Source: Hyphomonas sp. (lineage in GTDB: Bacteria > Pseudomonadota > Alphaproteobacteria > Caulobacterales > Hyphomonadaceae). Taken from it: a stretch of 64,000 nt of DNA. The position numbers and the translations under genes are program-made. The notes below the pieces were generated by a model. That model did not search any database and had not been told where the DNA came from. It saw only the letters and a list, made by a program, of their open reading frames with translations. Shown in pieces: positions 3,425 through 41,471 of the stretch; positions within the stretch are counted from its first letter, which is position 1, and each line of letters starts with the position of its first letter. The DNA lies in the NCBI RefSeq assembly GCF_022844445.1, contig NZ_JALHLS010000007.1, positions 1-64,000 on the forward strand, in the 5' to 3' direction.

Positions 3425-4249
3425 ATGAAACTCGCCTTCTTCGGAGACGTCGTCGGAAAGCCGGGCCGCAGCGCGGTGCAGTCGCACTTGCCCGGCCTGA
3501 AAGCGCGTCTGCGGCTCGATTTCGTGGTGGTCAACGGCGAGAACGCCGCCGGCGGCTTCGGCCTCACCAGCCAGATCGCCGAGGAATTCTTCGCGGCCGG
3601 CGCCGACTGCCTGACACTTGGCGACCATGCGTGGGACCAGCGCGAAGCCCTGACCTATATCGAGCGCGAGCCGAGGCTCCTGCGTCCGCTGAACTATCCG
3701 CCTGCCGCCCGCGCGCCGGGGAAGGGCGCGGAGCTGTTCACACTGCCCGATGGCCGCCGCGTCGGCGTCATCCAGCTGCAGGGCAACGTCTTCATGCGCC
3801 AGTCGCTCGCCTGTCCGTTCGCAGCGGCGGATGCGGCGCTCGACCAGATGCCGCTCGGCGCCGTGGCGGACGCGATCATCGTCGACATGCACTGCGAGGC
3901 GACCAGCGAGAAGATGGCCATGGGCCATCATTGCGACGGCCGTGCCAGCCTGGTTGTCGGCAGCCACACCCACGTGCCCACCGCCGACACGATGATCCTC
4001 TCCGGCGGCACCGCCTACCACACCGATGCCGGCATGTGCGGGGACTATGACTCCGTGATCGGCATGCAGAAGGAAGGCTCGCTCTACCGCTTCCAGTCGC
4101 AGCTCCCCGGTGAGCGCTACCAGCCCGCCCTCGGCGAAGGCACACTCTGCGGCACCTATGTCGAGACCGACGACCGCACCGGCCTGGCCTTACGCATCGA
4201 ACCCATCCGAATGGGCGGCAGGCTGAGTACGCAGGTTCCTGCCGGCTGA
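3425..4249 (+). CDS. TIGR00282 family metallophosphoesterase (YmdB-like)
   Basis: Homologue of Bacillus YmdB, a dinuclear-metal phosphodiesterase that hydrolyses cyclic nucleotides in vitro. At 274 aa it has the usual length. Metal-binding motifs are in order: FGDVVG (residues 6-11), VNGENAAGG (about 38-46), GDHAWD (about 67-72), DMHCEATSEK (about 156-165) and VGSHTHVPTAD (about 178-188). The third motif has Asp where Bacillus YmdB has Asn (GNH); alphaproteobacterial relatives may share this. Cytosolic. It is followed by yebC after about 100 bases. Confidence 0.93.
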   Translation: MKLAFFGDVVGKPGRSAVQSHLPGLKARLRLDFVVVNGENAAGGFGLTSQIAEEFFAAGADCLTLGDHAWDQREALTYIEREPRLLRPLNYPPAARAPGKGAELFTLPDGRRVGVIQLQGNVFMRQSLACPFAAADAALDQMPLGAVADAIIVDMHCEATSEKMAMGHHCDGRASLVVGSHTHVPTADTMILSGGTAYHTDAGMCGDYDSVIGMQKEGSLYRFQSQLPGERYQPALGEGTLCGTYVETDDRTGLALRIEPIRMGGRLSTQVPAG

Positions 4250-4347
4250 GCTGCGCGGCCGCTTCGGCCGTCACTTCCCATTTCGCCGCCCGCGCGTTAG
4301 AGAGCCCGCCAAACCGGAAACCTGAACAGAACCAAGAGGGTCACGCC

Positions 4348-5103
4348 ATGGCCGGCCATAGCAAGTGGGCAAACATCCAGCACCGCAAAGGCAAGCAGGA
4401 CAAGAAGCGCGCCGTGCTGTTCGCGCGCCTCGCCAAAGAGATTACGGTCGCCTCCAAGATGGGCGGACCTGACCCGTCCATGAACCCGCGCCTGCGCCTC
4501 GCCATCACCAACGCCAAGGGCGTCTCGGTGCCGAAGGACAACATCCAGCGCGCCATCGACAAGGGCCAGAGCGGCGGCGGCGCCGACTATGCCGACATTC
4601 GCTATGAAGGGGTCGGCCCCGGCGGGGTCGGTATCATCATCGAGGCTGCGACCGACAACAAGAACCGTACCGCCACCGACGTGCGTTCCGCCTTCACCAA
4701 GAGCGGCGGCGCGCTCGGCACCACTGGCTCGGTCTCGTTCAATTTCGACCAGCTGGGCGAGATCGAATACCCGGCCAGTGTCGGCACCCCGGACGAAGTC
4801 ATGGACGCCGCCATCATGGCCGGCGCGCAGGACGTGGAGTCGGATGAGGACGGCCACCGGATCTACACCGCGCGGGAAGATTTCGCGGCGGTGACGACCG
4901 CGCTCGCCGAAACCTTCGGCGCCAAGGTGGAGCCGCGCTCGGCCAAGATCATGTGGAAGCCGAAGGTCAATGTGACCGTTGCCGGCGACAATGCCGATGC
5001 GCTGATGAAGCTGCTCGATGTGCTCGACGAGCTGGACGATGTGCAGAACGTCTATGACAATTCGGAACTCTCCGACGAGGAAATGGCCCGCCTGGCGGGC
5101 TGA
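4348..5103 (+). CDS. yebC: YebC/PmpR family protein
   Basis: Full-length member (251 aa) of the YebC/PmpR family, beginning with the signature MAGHSKWANIQHRK. Members have been described as DNA-binding regulators and, more recently, as translation factors that relieve ribosome stalling. The three-domain layout is intact, including the GPGGVGIIIE segment near residues 90-100 and an acidic C-terminal domain. In many bacteria yebC sits beside ruvC and ruvAB; here it is followed instead by rpiB after 24 bases, and the pair may be co-transcribed. Confidence 0.95.
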   Translation: MAGHSKWANIQHRKGKQDKKRAVLFARLAKEITVASKMGGPDPSMNPRLRLAITNAKGVSVPKDNIQRAIDKGQSGGGADYADIRYEGVGPGGVGIIIEAATDNKNRTATDVRSAFTKSGGALGTTGSVSFNFDQLGEIEYPASVGTPDEVMDAAIMAGAQDVESDEDGHRIYTAREDFAAVTTALAETFGAKVEPRSAKIMWKPKVNVTVAGDNADALMKLLDVLDELDDVQNVYDNSELSDEEMARLAG

Positions 5104-36267: not shown

Positions 36268-36417
36268 CTACGGAAGGGTCGCCTCGGTCGCCGGCGCGTC
36301 GAACATCTTGTCATGCCGCTCAGCCGCTGGCAGGGCAAAGGCCATCGAGAGCGCGAAGGCAACGCCGGCGCCGATCGCGGCGCCGATGATCTGGCGAACA
36401 TTTCTGGACAACCGCAT
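36268..36417 (-). CDS. small single-pass membrane protein, 49 aa
   Basis: A short frame starting ATG at 36417 and ending TAG at 36268-36270. It has a basic start (MRLSRNVRQ), one hydrophobic segment at about residues 10-30 (IIGAAIGAGVAFALSMAFAL) and a short charged tail ERHDKMFDAPATE. It lies downstream of the ZIP transporter gene on the same strand after 81 bases. GC-rich third positions and a coherent membrane-protein pattern support coding. It does not show the histidine tail of CbtB. No function known. Confidence 0.5.
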   Translation of the reverse strand: MRLSRNVRQIIGAAIGAGVAFALSMAFALPAAERHDKMFDAPATEATLP

Positions 36418-36498
36418 CTGGTCTCTCCGCCCGTTTCGGGAGAGGGCCGTGCAAGGGACATGCCGATAGCGGGCTGAGGCGGGCCCGCGCTGTCCGGT

Positions 36499-37320
36499 TC
36501 AGTGCCCGCCGGCGGATTCCGGAACGTCTGCGCTGAAGTCGATTCCCGCGTGATCATGGTCATGACCATGGTTATCAAGCGCGCCGTGGCTGTGGATCGG
36601 AAGGGCGAGGATCGCGATCGCAAAGAGCACCCCGGCGGCCAGGGCGCCAAAGGCCCGGCCCGGCGCAATCTCCTTCAGAGGCTCCATCATGGGTCCGGTC
36701 GCCACATAGATCAGCAGCCCCGCCGAGACCGCATAGAGGGCTGCAATCGTCTCCGCGCCGAGGCCGTTGACGAACAGGCCAGATACCAGGGCGCCCAGCG
36801 GCGTGGTCGCGGCCGCGGCGATGAAGGCCCAGACCAGCGCCTCCTTAACCTTGAAACCGTGGCGCGACAGGATCGCGAACGCGATGATGCCTTCTGCAAA
36901 CTCGTGCAGGATGAGGCCCAGCGAGGCATAGACGCCCGACTGGAAACTCGCAGCGAAAGACACCGAATAGATCACGCCGTCGAAGAAGGAATGCACCCCC
37001 ACGGCCAGCAGCGGCGTGAAGGCTTCCGCCCGCGTCTGTCCGGCCCGCTCTGGAAAGAAAGTGCGCATCGCAAAGCTCAGCAGCAGGCCGGCGAAGAAAC
37101 CGCCCAGCAGGAACTTCGCCGCGGCATGACCGGTGCTCAGCGCTTCCGGCACGATGTGCAGCAGGCTCATGGTGATCAGCATGCCGCCCGCCGATAGCGC
37201 AAACAGGCCCGACTGGCGCGCCGACCAATCGCTCCGCATTGCCACGGCCGCCAGGCCCAGGGAGGTCACAACGGCGGCAAGCAGGCCAAAGGAGACGGAG
37301 GCCTGTAAGGAGAAAGGCAT
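36499..37320 (-). CDS. ZIP family divalent metal (zinc) transporter
   Basis: ZIP family importer of zinc or related metals, inner membrane, 273 aa. About eight hydrophobic segments are visible. Metal-site residues are in SLLHIVPEAL (about residues 54-63), HSFFDGVIYSVSFAA (about 109-123) and ILHEFAEGIIAFA (about 136-148), matching the paired His/Glu motifs of TM4 and TM5. Unusually, a His-rich metal-binding stretch (HSHGALDNHGHDHDHAG) is at the C-terminal end instead of the internal loop. It diverges from the His-rich lipoprotein and ABC genes across a 152-base gap that holds a Zur-like palindrome. Confidence 0.9.
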   Translation of the reverse strand: MPFSLQASVSFGLLAAVVTSLGLAAVAMRSDWSARQSGLFALSAGGMLITMSLLHIVPEALSTGHAAAKFLLGGFFAGLLLSFAMRTFFPERAGQTRAEAFTPLLAVGVHSFFDGVIYSVSFAASFQSGVYASLGLILHEFAEGIIAFAILSRHGFKVKEALVWAFIAAAATTPLGALVSGLFVNGLGAETIAALYAVSAGLLIYVATGPMMEPLKEIAPGRAFGALAAGVLFAIAILALPIHSHGALDNHGHDHDHAGIDFSADVPESAGGH

Positions 37321-37391
37321 TGGCGGAAGGGTCCTGCTGACAATGCAGGCGCCTGTCCCGGCAGGTCCGGAAGCCGCTTGCGAGAAGTGTT

Positions 37392-37406
37392 ATATTGTTT
37401 CAATAT
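37392..37406. promoter_or_regulatory. AT-rich palindrome, candidate Zur operator
   Basis: ATATTG-TTT-CAATAT is a perfect 15-base palindrome (37392-37397 and 37401-37406), preceded by GTGTT. It is strikingly AT-rich in a GC-rich genome and sits 72 bases upstream of the ZIP start and 67 bases upstream of the lipoprotein start. Fur-family Zur sites are AT-rich dyads of this kind, and both flanking operons look zinc-related. Binding is inferred. Confidence 0.55.
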
Positions 37407-37472
37407 GCCCTTGGCGAGCGGAATCTTCCGCCCGAACCCCTTTGCTTCCACAAGATCCTCCCGGAGCTGAAG

Positions 37473-38075
37473 ATGACCTTGTCCGTGACCCGTCTTTCCC
37501 TGTTTCTGGCCACTGCCAGCCTGCTGTCGGCATGCGGCGGTTCGGCACCCGAGCCGGTCGCCCCGCCGCAAGCGGCGGTCGAGGCACCGGTCGCCGAAAC
37601 CCCTGCGGAAGAGGCGCACGAGGATCATTCAGGTGAACACGATCATGATCATGAAGACGAGGAAGCCGCCGGCGGCACGGCACATGTCCACGGCCTCGCC
37701 GATCTTGCCCTGACCCGGGACGGCAACCGGTTCGAAGCCGAGCTTATCTCGCCGCTCGCCAATTTCGGTCTCTCGGAAGCGGACGGTAAGTTCACCGATG
37801 CCGTCACCGCAGAGCTTTCCGGCCTGATCGAACTTGTCGGAGGCGACTGCACGCCGGCGGCGCCGCACGCCGAAGTCGACACGACCAGCGGCCATACCGA
37901 CGGTCATGTCCACGCGACCTGGACCTGCGGCAGTCCGGACCGCGTGACGGCCCTGCGCTTTGCCGGCTTCACAGCATTTTCCGGCTTCGAGAGCGTCAGC
38001 GCCGTCTACATCACCGACACCGCTCAGAAGGCGGGCAATCTGACGCCTTCCGCGCCGGAGCTTTCCCTGAAATAA
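37473..38075 (+). CDS. His-rich lipoprotein of the DUF2796/ZrgA type
   Basis: Probable zinc-binding periplasmic protein, 200 aa. The lipoprotein signal ends LLSAC (Cys21). A Pro/Ala/Glu linker leads into a His/Asp/Glu-rich stretch (residues about 49-64, e.g. HEDHSGEHDHDHEDEE), then HVHGLADLAL, typical of DUF2796, whose best-known member is the zinc-uptake protein ZrgA of Vibrio. More histidines occur in HTDGHVHATW near residue 145. The ATG at 37473 is chosen for the signal peptide. It heads a run with an ABC ATPase 7 bases downstream. Confidence 0.85.
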   Translation: MTLSVTRLSLFLATASLLSACGGSAPEPVAPPQAAVEAPVAETPAEEAHEDHSGEHDHDHEDEEAAGGTAHVHGLADLALTRDGNRFEAELISPLANFGLSEADGKFTDAVTAELSGLIELVGGDCTPAAPHAEVDTTSGHTDGHVHATWTCGSPDRVTALRFAGFTAFSGFESVSAVYITDTAQKAGNLTPSAPELSLK

Positions 38076-38082
38076 GGCGCGT

Positions 38083-38790
38083 ATGAGCCAGCCCGTCATC
38101 GAGATCGAGAACATCACGTTTGCCTGGAAGCAGGGGCCGCAGGTTCTCGATGTGCCTGCCTTCCGCGTCGAGGCGGGCGAGCGCGTATTCCTCCGCGGCC
38201 CGTCCGGTTCCGGCAAATCCACGCTGCTCGGCCTTATCGCCGGTGTGCTGGCGCCCCAGTCGGGCACGATCCGCGTGCTCGGCGAGGACATGAGCGCGCT
38301 CTCGCCCTCGAAGCGGGACCGTCTGCGGGCGGATCATGTCGGCGTCATCTTCCAGATGTTCAATCTGGTGCCGTATCTGTCGGTGACCGGGAATGTCCTC
38401 CTCCCGCTGCGCTTTTCGCCGGCCCGCCGCAAGGCCGCTGGAGACGATGCGGAAGGGGAGGCGCGGCGCCTGCTTGCGCGCCTTGGCCTCGACGACGAGG
38501 CCCTGCTGTCGCGCCGCGTGTCGGACCTCTCGGTCGGCCAGCAGCAGCGCGTCGCCGCTGCCCGCGCGCTGATCGGCGCGCCCCGTCTGATCATCGCCGA
38601 CGAGCCGACCTCCGCGCTTGATGCCGATGCCCGCGACCGGTTCATCGCGCTCCTCTCCGAGGAAGTGACCCGCACCGGGGCAAGCCTCCTCTTCGTGAGC
38701 CATGACGCAAGCCTCGCGCCGCTGTTCACCCGCGCGGTCGATCTCGCCGCCATCAACCGGGCCATGGCGCCGGCAGGAGCCAGGGCATGA
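38083..38790 (+). CDS. ABC transporter ATPase, LolD/MacB type
   Basis: A 235-aa ATPase. Walker A is GPSGSGKST (about residues 39-47), the Q-loop segment is GVIFQMFNLVPYL, the signature is LSVGQQQRVAAARAL and Walker B is LIIADEPTSALDA. It belongs to the group that pairs with FtsX-fold (MacB/LolE) permeases rather than with classical ZnuBC importers. Its stop overlaps the start of the permease by 4 bases (ATGA), so the two are translationally coupled. Confidence 0.92.
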   Translation: MSQPVIEIENITFAWKQGPQVLDVPAFRVEAGERVFLRGPSGSGKSTLLGLIAGVLAPQSGTIRVLGEDMSALSPSKRDRLRADHVGVIFQMFNLVPYLSVTGNVLLPLRFSPARRKAAGDDAEGEARRLLARLGLDDEALLSRRVSDLSVGQQQRVAAARALIGAPRLIIADEPTSALDADARDRFIALLSEEVTRTGASLLFVSHDASLAPLFTRAVDLAAINRAMAPAGARA

Positions 38791-40054
38791 CAGCACTTCT
38801 CTCCCTTGCCTGGCGCAGCCTGCTCAACCGCAAGGGCTCGGTGATCCTCACCATCGTCGCGGTCGCGCTCTCAGTCGCGCTCTTCCTCGGGGTCGAGAAG
38901 GCCCGCAGCGGCGCACGCGAAGGCTTCGGCAACACAATTTCCGGAACCGACCTGATCGTCGGTGCACCAACCGGTTCGGTGAACCTCCTGCTCTACTCCG
39001 TCTTCCGGATGGGCAGTGCCACGGCGGAAGTCTCCTGGGCGACCTACGAGAAGCTCGCCGCCCGCCCGGACATCGCCTGGACCGTCCCGGTCGCCCTCGG
39101 CGACAGTCATCGCGGCTACCGGGTGATGGGCACTACGCTCGGCTATTTCGATCACTACAAGTATGGCGGCGGCCAGACGCTCGACTTGCCGATGGCCAGC
39201 GCTTCGACGATCTCTTCGACACCGTCATCGGCTCGGAAGTGGCCCGCGAGCTGGGCTACTCGATCGGCACGCCCATCGTGCTCAACCACGGTCTCGGCGC
39301 CGCCGATCTCGGCTCCGGCCACGAGAACCGGCCCTTCCGCGTCGTCGGCATCCTGAAACCCACGGGCACGCCGGTGGACCGCACGGTGCATGTCTCGCTG
39401 GAAGCGATCACCGCGATCCATGTCGGCTGGGAAACCGGCGCGAAGAACCCGCTCGCCGACACGATCCCGGAAGAAATGATCCGCTCCTTCGACCTGACGC
39501 CGAAGACGGTCACCGCCGTCTTCGTCGGCCTCGAGCGCAAGGGCACGATCCTCACCACCCGCCGCGCCATCAACACCAACCGCACCGAACCTCTGATGGC
39601 GATCATTCCGGGCGAAGCGCTGTCCGAGCTCTGGAATGTCACCTCGGTCGCCGAGCGCGCGCTGTTGGCGGTTTCGGCCTTCGTGATCGCAGTCGGCCTC
39701 GTGTCGATCCTCACGTCCATCCTGACCAGCCTCAACGAGCGCCGCCGCGAGATGTCCATCCTGCGGGCCACCGGCGCGCGGCCACACCACATCTTCCTAT
39801 TGCTTGTGCTGGAAGCCGGCCTTGTCGGCTTCCTCGGCGCCGTGCTCGGCATTGCGCTGGTCCACGGGATTATCGCCCTGATCGCTCCGCTTCTCCAGGC
39901 TCAGTATGGCGTCGCCTTCTCGATGGGCGCGCCGGGCCTCGTGGATCTCGCCGTTCTTGCCGCCGTCACGGCCGCCTCGCTGTTGATCGGCGCGGTGCCC
40001 GCCCTTGCGGCGATGCGCCGCTCGCTCGCCGACGGGCTCAGCGTGCGGCTCTAG
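38787..40054 (+). pseudogene. FtsX/MacB-type ABC permease with a frameshift
   Basis: The reading frame starts at 38787 and is normal up to about residue 132 (HYKYGGGQTLD). It then continues correctly only in another frame (LADGQRFDDLFDTVIGSEVA) to a stop at 40052-40054. The total length of 1268 bases is one short of a multiple of three. Restoring one C after position 39185 would give GAC CTT GCC GAT and a single 422-residue protein. An N-terminal membrane segment (ILTIVAVALSVALFLGV) and three C-terminal ones in the FtsX domain (from about LLAVSAFVIAVGLVSILTS) are otherwise intact, with no other lesion. It may be a sequencing error or a recent inactivation. Confidence 0.85.
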
Positions 40055-40123
40055 CGGTTTCGTGAAGAGGGATGTGAAAACTGGTGCTGGCACGCAGCGC
40101 CGGGGCGTTTTATGAGAGTAGGC

Positions 40124-40834
40124 ATGACCCAACGCTTCAACGCCCTATATGCCTCGATCCTTGCCGCCTCGCTGGTGGCCTGCACCGACGCCTCGACCCA
40201 GCCCGCCGAGGCTGCCCCCGCCTCCAAACCGGCGGCCACGAGTACCGCGAAACCGGAGCCGAAAGTCGGCGACAAGATCGGCGAGACCGCCGCCGACCGC
40301 GCCGCCGCCCGCGAGGCCAAGGCCGCCCAGCGCGCCGCCGATGCGAAGAAGCGCGACGCCGAACTCGCCGCTCGCGGCGTCAGGCGCATCGGCTGGGAAG
40401 ACCTGATGCCGGAAGGAGAGGAGGAGCGCCTCGCCCAGATGTATCAGGCTCAGATGTCGATGCTCTATTCCGGCGCCGGTGTGGCAGAAGGCTCGGCCGG
40501 TGATACCGCCGTCCAGATCGGCACATTCAACACGGTCAAGGAACTCAACGGCAAGAAGATCCGCATCCCGGGCTACACGGTTCCGTTCGAGTACGGCGCC
40601 GATGCGCAGATCAAGGAGTTCCTGCTGGTGCCGTATTTCGGCGCCTGCATCCACGCCCCGCCGCCGCCGCCGAACCAGACTGTGTTCGTGATGGCCGACA
40701 AGCCGATCAAGATGAAAGATCTCGCGCAAGCCGTTTGGATCGAAGGAACGATCCACACCCAGACCCAGGAAAGCGATCTGGCCGACGCCGCTTACACGAT
40801 CACGCTGACCGCGATTGAGGAATACACGTACTGA
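40124..40834 (+). CDS. DUF3299 domain lipoprotein
   Basis: A 236-aa lipoprotein with signal MTQRFNALYASILAASLVAC (Cys20). A Lys/Ala-rich helical linker spans about residues 45-80. The DUF3299 domain is at about 120-236, with KKIRIPGYTVPFEY, FLLVPYFGACIHAPPPPPNQ and VEGTI-like WIEGTIHTQTQESDLA. The conserved Cys/His pair in GACIH is a candidate metal or thiol site. DUF3299 proteins occur with DUF2796 and MacB-type ABC genes, so it likely belongs to the zinc locus. The ATG at 40124 is chosen (AGAGTAGG upstream); an ATG at 40112 is in frame. Confidence 0.83.
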   Translation: MTQRFNALYASILAASLVACTDASTQPAEAAPASKPAATSTAKPEPKVGDKIGETAADRAAAREAKAAQRAADAKKRDAELAARGVRRIGWEDLMPEGEEERLAQMYQAQMSMLYSGAGVAEGSAGDTAVQIGTFNTVKELNGKKIRIPGYTVPFEYGADAQIKEFLLVPYFGACIHAPPPPPNQTVFVMADKPIKMKDLAQAVWIEGTIHTQTQESDLADAAYTITLTAIEEYTY

Positions 40835-40835
40835 C

Positions 40836-41471
40836 GTGGCGATCGCTGACCCCTCCGCCATCCGCACGGTCGCCTGGGACTTTGACGGCGTTCTGAACCG
40901 GAACGTCCAGAATGGCGTGTTCGCTTGGTCGCGCACGTTCGAACGCGATCTCGGCCTGTCGCTGCACTCCTTCAGCCGCCACCTGTTCGACGGCCGATTC
41001 CAGAAGGCGATGCAGGGCGAAGCCTGCCTGCTCGAAATCGTCACTGAGTGGACCGAGAAGAACGGCGCGCATGGCCGCACGCATGAGATCCTCGACTACT
41101 GGTTCAGCCGGGACAATCTGCCGGACCATGACACGCTGGCGATTGTCGGCGCGCTGAAGCAGCGCGGCGTGCGCAACGTGATGGCGACCAACAACGAAGT
41201 GCGGCGTACGGACTATATCGAGCATACGATGGGCTTCCATGCTCATGTCGAGCGCATCTTCGCCGCCGGCCGGATGAAGATCGCCAAGCCCGACACAGGC
41301 TATTTTGCCCATATCGAGGAAGAACTTCAGGCCGATCCGCGCACGCTGCTGCTGGTCGATGACATGCACGAGAACATCCTCGCTGCCCGCGGGCGCGGAT
41401 GGCAGGCGTTCCATTTCACCGAAGGCTCACACGGCGCGCTGGCCGAGGCGCTGGGCGTCACCTTCGCCTAG
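40836..41471 (+). CDS. HAD-superfamily hydrolase
   Basis: A haloacid-dehalogenase-fold phosphatase of about 211 aa. The nucleophile motif is WDFDGVLNRNV (about residues 12-22), with the Asp pair in DFDGV. Motif II Thr is in NVMATNN, motif III Lys is in MKIAKPDTGYF, and the acidic motif IV is LLLVDDMHENI. The GTG at 40836 follows the DUF3299 stop by 1 base, so the genes are probably co-transcribed, but no metabolic link to zinc is evident. An in-frame TTG at 40815 is a less likely start. Substrate unknown. Confidence 0.87.
   Translation: MAIADPSAIRTVAWDFDGVLNRNVQNGVFAWSRTFERDLGLSLHSFSRHLFDGRFQKAMQGEACLLEIVTEWTEKNGAHGRTHEILDYWFSRDNLPDHDTLAIVGALKQRGVRNVMATNNEVRRTDYIEHTMGFHAHVERIFAAGRMKIAKPDTGYFAHIEEELQADPRTLLLVDDMHENILAARGRGWQAFHFTEGSHGALAEALGVTFA

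Follow-up and report, generated by a model that had tools for sequence, protein, structure and literature searches.

Introduction

The closest described relatives of the locus considered here are ZrgABCDE of Vibrio cholerae and Vibrio parahaemolyticus, made up of a DUF2796 protein, an ATPase, a permease, a DUF2607 protein and a DUF3299 protein (PMC9817125), and PA4063–PA4066 of Pseudomonas aeruginosa (papers are cited by their PubMed Central (PMC) identifiers and from the portions available to us). Deletion of zrgA leads to poorer growth of V. parahaemolyticus at low zinc (PMC9817125), and V. cholerae requires zrgA for zinc-limited growth once znuA is missing (PMC9820375). For PA4063–PA4066, by contrast, pyochelin-cobalt export has been argued from genetics and from pyochelin and cobalt measurements (PMC11481552); PA4063 has also been studied structurally (PMC8561739). 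The role of Zrg is hence disputed in print, with zinc import in Vibrio set against cobalt-metallophore export in P. aeruginosa. Here we analyze a Zrg-type locus carried on a 64,000-nucleotide stretch of Hyphomonas sp. (NCBI RefSeq assembly GCF_022844445.1, contig NZ_JALHLS010000007.1, positions 1 to 64,000 of the forward strand; hereafter the window), in which a gene for a ZIP-family metal transporter is divergent from the zrg genes.

We propose, with a probability that we put at roughly one half, that this is a Zrg-type locus with an inner-membrane zinc carrier of its own, in which ZrgA, the DUF3299 protein and the ATP-binding cassette (ABC) pair would handle zinc in the periplasm and the ZIP protein would carry it inward. 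The proposal agrees with the fold class of the permease, with the repeated capture of 2 unrelated carriers by zrg loci and, more weakly, with the absence of ZnuB.

Results

A ZIP gene at a Zrg-type locus

The block consists of the following features (coordinates are those of the window):

36499..37320, minus strand: ZIP-family metal transporter, 273 amino acids; PF02535, 63.4 bits against a cut-off of 35.1
37388..37405, no strand: conserved inverted repeat TGTTATATTGTTTCAATA in the ZIP/zrgA intergene, a putative derived Zur operator
37473..38075, plus strand: ZrgA (DUF2796), a predicted periplasmic zinc-binding lipoprotein; PF10986, 76.4 bits against a cut-off of 27.4
38083..38790, plus strand: ABC ATPase of the LolD/FtsE/MacB class, ZrgC-like; PF00005, 110.3 bits
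38787..39188, plus strand: N-terminal part of a MacB-type permease (ZrgB-like), the frame being lost near 39,187
39187..40054, plus strand: C-terminal part of the same permease in a different frame, with an FtsX domain (PF02687); boundary approximate
40112..40834, plus strand: DUF3299 protein (ZrgE/PA4066 family), a predicted lipoprotein; PF11736, 155.6 bits against a cut-off of 22

The ZIP gene is divergent from the 4 plus-strand genes (37473-40834), from which it is separated by one common intergene, and the stop codon of the ATPase overlaps the start codon of the permease. An earlier, sequence-only reading had proposed a zinc-acquisition block made of a ZIP transporter with a His-rich tail divergent from a DUF2796-ABC-DUF3299 cluster. 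The Pfam matches bear out the 5 parts and their orientation, and the assignment to zinc-acquisition families agrees with a ZrgA-type protein, a MacB-type permease and a ZIP protein being kept together; the starting point given, 36268, included about 230 extra bases, the ZIP frame ending at 36499. That reading singled out the joining of a ZIP channel and a MacB-type ABC under one promoter region as its strongest candidate for an under-described system. For the DUF2796-ABC-DUF3299 part taken alone, the label under-described is not supported: these genes correspond to zrgA, zrgC, zrgB and zrgE, which have been studied in V. cholerae, V. parahaemolyticus and P. aeruginosa, and a MacB-like build had already been recognized for the V. 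cholerae permease (PMC9820375) and, along with mechanotransmission, for the PA4063–PA4066 ABC (PMC11481552). The plus-strand half is a divergent member of the known Zrg family, and the ZIP partner is the new part. In the available portions of the open-licence PMC literature on zrg, PA4063, DUF2796/DUF3299 and Hyphomonas zinc uptake, no ZIP gene is named in a zrg locus, nor is one mentioned at such a locus in those of PMC4176598, PMC6103462, PMC8248653 and PMC12574912.

Like the ZIP/ZupT importers, the window ZIP lies over the PF02535 cut-off, but it falls far under that of the ZupT equivalog NF003243 (29.8 bits, cut-off 252), and its subgroup is mostly zrg-linked among the rows used. Its C-terminal tail is His-rich (...HSHGALDNHGHDHDHAGIDFSADVPESAGGH), and it carries HSFFDG and HEFAEG, His and Asp/Glu motifs of the types found in transmembrane segments 4 and 5, respectively. 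ZrgA and the DUF3299 protein have lipobox-like leaders (LLSAC and LVAC, both read by eye). Together with the PF10986 match and the His-rich N-terminal part, the leader supports the earlier description of the former as a ZrgA-type His-rich lipoprotein; in the alignment, read by eye, most histidines are N-terminal and the central His-rich loop seems to be reduced. An HxHG motif and a Glu 29 residues later are kept in all 36 informative rows out of 37 (that of L064 was matched to an earlier HxHG and is uninformative; here and below, L, G and f numbers denote stretches, genomes and families, respectively), and correspond, by residue counting, to the 2 His and the Glu of published site 1 (His35/His37/Glu66). 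Because the protein scores 41.9 bits against the NCBIfam ZrgA equivalog NF047873 (cut-off 185), we regard it as a divergent ZrgA and not as NCBI's named equivalog. The DUF3299 protein has an OB-like fold and the motif GxCxHxPPPPxNQ, whose residues are invariant or nearly so across 40 sequences. The nearest solved structures are PA4063 (7ahw) and PA4066 (4hsp).

The top NCBIfam models of the ATPase are DevA, FtsE and LolD, each scored under its own cut-off. The permease belongs to the MacB superfamily, as judged from its FtsX C-terminal domain and from a MacB-like fold read in an intact relative, which matches the MacB/LolE/FtsX fold class (MacB_PCD in L184, 39.2 bits, cut-off 27); this class is not known to offer a trans-membrane substrate path. 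Unlike in the MacB/LolCDE/FtsEX superfamily, ATPase and permease are here encoded by separate genes, and the Hyphomonas neighbors are zinc-binding-type proteins and a ZIP rather than MacA/TolC, LolA or EnvC. No MacA-type periplasmic adaptor was found among the 10 window proteins around the block to which the scan was limited.

ZIP-zrgA linkage recurs across bacteria

PF10986 is present in all 37 searched genomes of the genus. ZIP is the divergent neighbor of zrgA in 35 of 36 Hyphomonas stretches, the remaining contig starting just before zrgA; all 5 genes are visible in 33 of the 36 (L034, L044 and L064 are cut by contig ends), and the genes flanking the block differ among relatives. The sequence-only reading had named a gene-neighborhood survey as its check and non-conservation as grounds for abandoning the idea; instead, the ZIP-zrgA pair is kept genus-wide and recurs elsewhere.

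To sample zrgA more broadly, we drew on a phylum search (84 of 397 genomes over the cut-off) and a class search (21 of 289), from which 80 stretches of 78 genomes were chosen by hand, one or few per genus, those omitted being mostly members of the same genera; a weak match in G054 (27.8 bits) was dropped because its stretch, L047, had no zrg locus. The locus profiles for ZIP and MerC were built from sequences gathered in this analysis. ZIP adjoins zrgA in 6 of the 73 zrgA genomes outside Hyphomonas, namely, G572 and G584 of the window's own family (probably Henriciella, a link made through genus code g230), G168 and G253 of f109, G541 of f199 and G615 of f205. With 32 ZIP genes over the cut-off in 25 of these 73 genomes, only 0.024 ZIP-zrgA neighbors within 1.5 kb would be expected by chance, against the 6 observed. 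In f199 and f205, ZIP lies upstream of zrgA on the same strand, sharing one base with it in L138 and lying 38 bases apart in L146. The divergent arrangement is also present in the named Henriciella loci L186 and L187, and among the best 80 of 588 named loci, several of them short stretches, the pair occurs only in Hyphomonas (3) and Henriciella (2). The linked ZIPs form 2 distant, supported subgroups in a tree of 30 rows, with unlinked ZIPs in both (7 of the 20 unlinked ZIP stretches, unmatched by the profile, were excluded). On the permease tree, a quick one with several long branches, 4 changes are required for ZIP and 8 for MerC; the G429 loci L126 and L163 are labeled there as having no carrier, whereas G429 is counted in the MerC-linked class below. 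Each of 6 Hyphomonas genomes searched has a single ZIP, the one described here being the only one in the window's genome.

A HAD-family hydrolase gene lies immediately downstream of the DUF3299 gene (window 40836-41471, start approximate), and 17 of the 36 Hyphomonas stretches have such a gene along with the block.

MerC as a second carrier, and zrgA apart from the ABC

Among 88 surveyed zrgA loci, 18 have MerC (PF03203), 7 have ZIP, none has both and 63 have neither in the stretch. A genome-wide MerC search, covering 34 genomes, gave no match in that of the window. In 5 Hyphomonas genomes that carry the ABC at the main locus, a second zrgA-DUF3299 pair with no linked ABC (L069–L073; e.g., 3545-7215 of L069) adjoins a Fur-family regulator, and MerC and a COG0523 GTPase are encoded divergently from it; near-canonical Zur-like boxes are present. 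With L074, zrgA-DUF3299 pairs that lack a linked ABC number 6, all in genomes with a Zrg permease elsewhere. The single-contig genome G509 contains an island of COG0523, DUF1826, zrgA, Fur and MerC (4905-8440 of L134), and no Zrg permease was found genome-wide. Nor was one found in G654 and G687, where zrgA is near imelysin-type genes. These 3 genomes show that zrgA can occur independently of the MacB-type genes.

Further variants were encountered. A zrgA-like gene is divergent from an imelysin-type gene in L111 (6988-9065) and L115 (5368-7566; the Pfam scan was run on L111), stretches of 2 genomes in which no Zrg permease was found, and in such imelysin-side genes the ZrgA fold may be put to another use. 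Zrg-type ATPase and permease genes occur in L189, L195, L199 and L247, from Glycocaulis, Oceanicaulis and other Alphaproteobacteria, where the profiles detected neither zrgA nor DUF3299 in the stretch, and a tandem DUF3299 pair follows the permease in L098, L108, L112, L114, L116, L126 and L163 (families f23 and f170).

Two alternative readings can be considered in this light. ZrgABC could be a complete ABC zinc importer, as has been put forward for Vibrio, with ZIP, expressed from the same promoter, importing zinc in parallel and not in series with it. This would leave unexplained the recurrence of linked carriers and the zrgA beside MerC in G509, and would assign import to a permease of a fold class not known to offer such a path. 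The importer reading is in line with the 63 loci lacking either carrier and with the low-zinc growth phenotypes of zrgA mutants in V. cholerae devoid of znuA (PMC9820375) and in V. parahaemolyticus (PMC9817125), but on balance we consider it rather unlikely. Alternatively, the MacB-type ABC could export a metallophore or a metal-metallophore complex, assisted by ZrgA and DUF3299, as the genetics and the pyochelin and cobalt measurements were taken to indicate for PA4063–PA4066 (PMC11481552), and the MacB-class fold is also recovered here. However, the statement in the available portion of that paper that ZrgA and DUF3299 homologs are invariably tied to ABC genes is contradicted by L069–L074 (with the qualification that their genomes do have a Zrg permease elsewhere), and zrgA occurs in G509, G654 and G687, where no Zrg permease was found; moreover, the recurrent pairing with ZIP speaks for uptake. 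We consider export very doubtful.

The intergenic inverted repeat

The inverted repeat GTKATANNNTWTCA is found in 36 ZIP-zrgA intergenes with 0, 1 and 2 mismatches in 28, 7 and 1 of them, respectively, the pattern having been derived from the same 36 rows on which it was counted; shuffles match it in 0.8% of cases at one mismatch and never at zero. The longer genus pattern occurs in the window's genome once exactly (37388..37405) and once with 2 mismatches. The Zur box form GTTATAnTATAAC stands without a mismatch at the corresponding intergenic position of both f109 loci and is near the V. parahaemolyticus site quoted in the available part of PMC9817125. L186 differs from this form by one mismatch, and L104, L105 and L187 by two, and a site within 3 mismatches is present in 29 of the 36 Hyphomonas intergenes versus about 5% of shuffles. 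These comparisons suggest that the Hyphomonas repeat is a Zur operator that has drifted. A plain -10/-35 promoter appears to fit less well than an inverted repeat, the hexamer registers being misaligned across rows (by eye). The genome encodes 2 Fur-family proteins, one of them Zur-like by eye (L082, PF01475, 34.6 bits), with no canonical-type box in the stretch of its gene.

The putative operator in Hyphomonas departs from the canonical Zur box, the best fit in the 36 intergenes having 2 to 4 mismatches. Several findings speak against drift: the second zrgA locus of the genus retains near-canonical boxes, the window contains no canonical box within 2 mismatches, and none was found upstream of ZIP in the stretches L138 and L146. 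A Zur regulon read through canonical boxes was also considered for the window's genome and rejected. Genome-wide, there are 2 one-mismatch sites (0 for a backwards-pattern control), one beside a methyltransferase-like open reading frame (ORF) and the other near AbrB-like and TspO-like ORFs (names by eye), none of which we recognize as a zinc gene.

The shared intergene raises the possibility that the association is regulatory only, with ZIP and Zrg under one zinc-responsive promoter, both useful in shortage and neither depending mechanistically on the other. In favor of this, the two genes point away from each other across a single operator-like site in Hyphomonas, Henriciella and f109, and in many zrgA genomes a ZIP gene is found away from zrgA. 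The same-strand pairs of L138 and L146 are difficult to accommodate, as is the mutual exclusion of ZIP and MerC at the 88 loci. We regard a purely regulatory association as possible, although we lean away from it.

A broken permease frame

The sequence-only reading listed a matching permease, and a permease of MacB type, not of ZnuB type, is indeed present, but the break in its frame had been overlooked. The N-terminal part, from 38787, and the C-terminal part, to 40054, lie in differing frames, and the sole internal gap column in a comparison with 4 relatives corresponds to one base absent from the window near 39,187. Because the gene is intact in most relatives (33 of the 34 in which it lies wholly inside the contig), the break reflects either an error of sequencing or a mutation of recent origin. 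Programmed frameshifting was rejected, since 33 of 34 relatives have a single frame (L033 is also broken) and the base is absent only from the window. Searches of 3 Hyphomonas genomes gave one Zrg permease each, broken in that of the window (G000) and in G019, and no second copy was found in the former. The permease of G019, a single-contig genome, is likewise split into 2 frames (L033, about 4036-5086).

Conceivably, the ABC is dead in this strain and ZIP acts alone, as one missing base and the lack of another Zrg permease in the genome would have it. Past the break, however, differences from L035 at codon positions 1, 2 and 3 number 25/289, 10/290 and 99/290, respectively, so that the third-position bias persists, and nearly all whole genes of relatives are intact. 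We judge a dead ABC to be improbable.

ZnuB distribution and the weight of the evidence

A strong match to the ABC-3 permease of ZnuB type (E<1e-20) was found in none of the 6 ZIP-linked genomes, in 3 of the 12 MerC-linked genomes and in 48 of the 55 other zrgA genomes (Fisher p versus the latter, 3e-5 for ZIP and 4e-5 for MerC, among related genomes). The ZIP-linked G253 has a weak match (1.6e-4), and at a looser limit of 1e-7, the MerC-linked count rises to 5 of 12 (p 0.002). The 7 other zrgA genomes with no strong ZnuB all have an unlinked ZIP or MerC over the cut-off. PF00950 has 0 matches in the window's genome, and 40 of 41 Hyphomonas genomes have none, the remaining one being weak.

A number of observations weigh against a linked carrier that completes the Zrg pathway. 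When the association between carrier and ZnuB is corrected for the tree, it is not significant (p values with a median of 0.125 and a range of 0.031-0.375; the average number of pairs is 0.1 in the same direction, 4.5 in the other and 3.4 with no difference), at least 6 informative pairs being needed where about 4-5 are available, and ZIP alone gives 3 pairs and a median p of 0.5. Six same-order controls that lack zrgA have ZnuB strongly in 1 case, weakly in 2 and not at all in 3, and the Caulobacter control genome has no match. ZnuB being rare in the order regardless of zrg, Hyphomonas and Henriciella may lack it simply by lineage. Moreover, 42 of 79 zrgA genomes have no ZIP match, neither carrier lies in the stretch at most zrgA loci (63 of 88), and 5 of the 6 ZIP-linked genomes have a MerC at another place, so that mutual exclusion of the carriers holds at loci and not in genomes. 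In the present assembly, the permease gene lacks an intact reading frame. Finally, the genetics published for Vibrio and Pseudomonas also lend themselves to a reading against the proposal: since Zrg supports growth of V. cholerae in the absence of ZnuA (PMC9820375), the ABC or an unlinked carrier suffices there, and in P. aeruginosa, the ABC has been argued to export pyochelin-cobalt, its deletion bringing no relevant change in cell zinc (PMC11481552).

Discussion

Compared with Vibrio ZrgABCDE, the Hyphomonas block shares 4 of the 5 genes, the core order ZrgA-ATPase-permease-DUF3299 (as in L198 and L205), a site-1-like ZrgA motif and a MacB-like permease. It differs in that zrgD is absent from the block, to which the search was confined and which has no gap long enough, ZrgA has a lipobox, the operator is not canonical and the promoter region is common to zrgA and a ZIP gene. 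In addition, Vibrio has ZnuABC, as does P. aeruginosa, whereas nearly all Hyphomonas genomes have no ZnuB match. PA4063–PA4066 comprises the same 4 families with no ZIP among its genes. The physiological role that we propose is the same as that of ZnuABC, whose permease has no counterpart by PF00950 in the window's genome. Caulobacter znuGHI was considered as a relative and rejected, the available literature describing it as ABC-2 type and hence not Zrg.

We infer zinc as the substrate, the identity of the regulator and the division of labor between the ABC and ZIP, and the locus is probably a zinc-starvation locus. In the proposed relay, a shortage of zinc would release a Zur-like repressor from the shared intergenic operator and both arms would be transcribed; ZrgA, as a His-rich periplasmic lipoprotein, would collect zinc with the help of the DUF3299 protein; the MacB-type ABC pair would spend ATP on movement in the periplasm, for example, in loading or unloading ZrgA; and ZIP would take zinc to the cytoplasm, the job done by ZnuB elsewhere.

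More tentatively, and in our estimate somewhat unlikely, Zrg as a whole could be a composite importer, whose ABC would not itself transport zinc through the inner membrane at any point but would spend ATP in the periplasm on ZrgA and DUF3299, the crossing being left to an exchangeable carrier. Hyphomonas and Henriciella would use ZIP for this, other lineages MerC, and Vibrio and Pseudomonas either ZnuABC or a carrier encoded away from the locus. An ABC machine feeding a secondary channel is not known as a mode of nutrient uptake. No account of inward ion transport by a MacB-fold transporter was found in the available portions of the open-licence PMC literature. Hyphomonas appears to be a clean host in which to address the question, with no ZnuB match in 40 of 41 genomes, one ZIP per genome in the 6 searched and one Zrg permease in each of 3. 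The repeated capture of 2 unrelated inner-membrane metal carriers by zrg loci, together with zrgA occurring without the ABC, suggests a testable answer to the dispute over Zrg, and a composite importer, if true, could bring together the claims of import and of export made for one family. The recurrence of the ZIP-zrg pairing in unrelated bacteria suggests that the channel, and not the ATP-driven part, may be what brings zinc inside.

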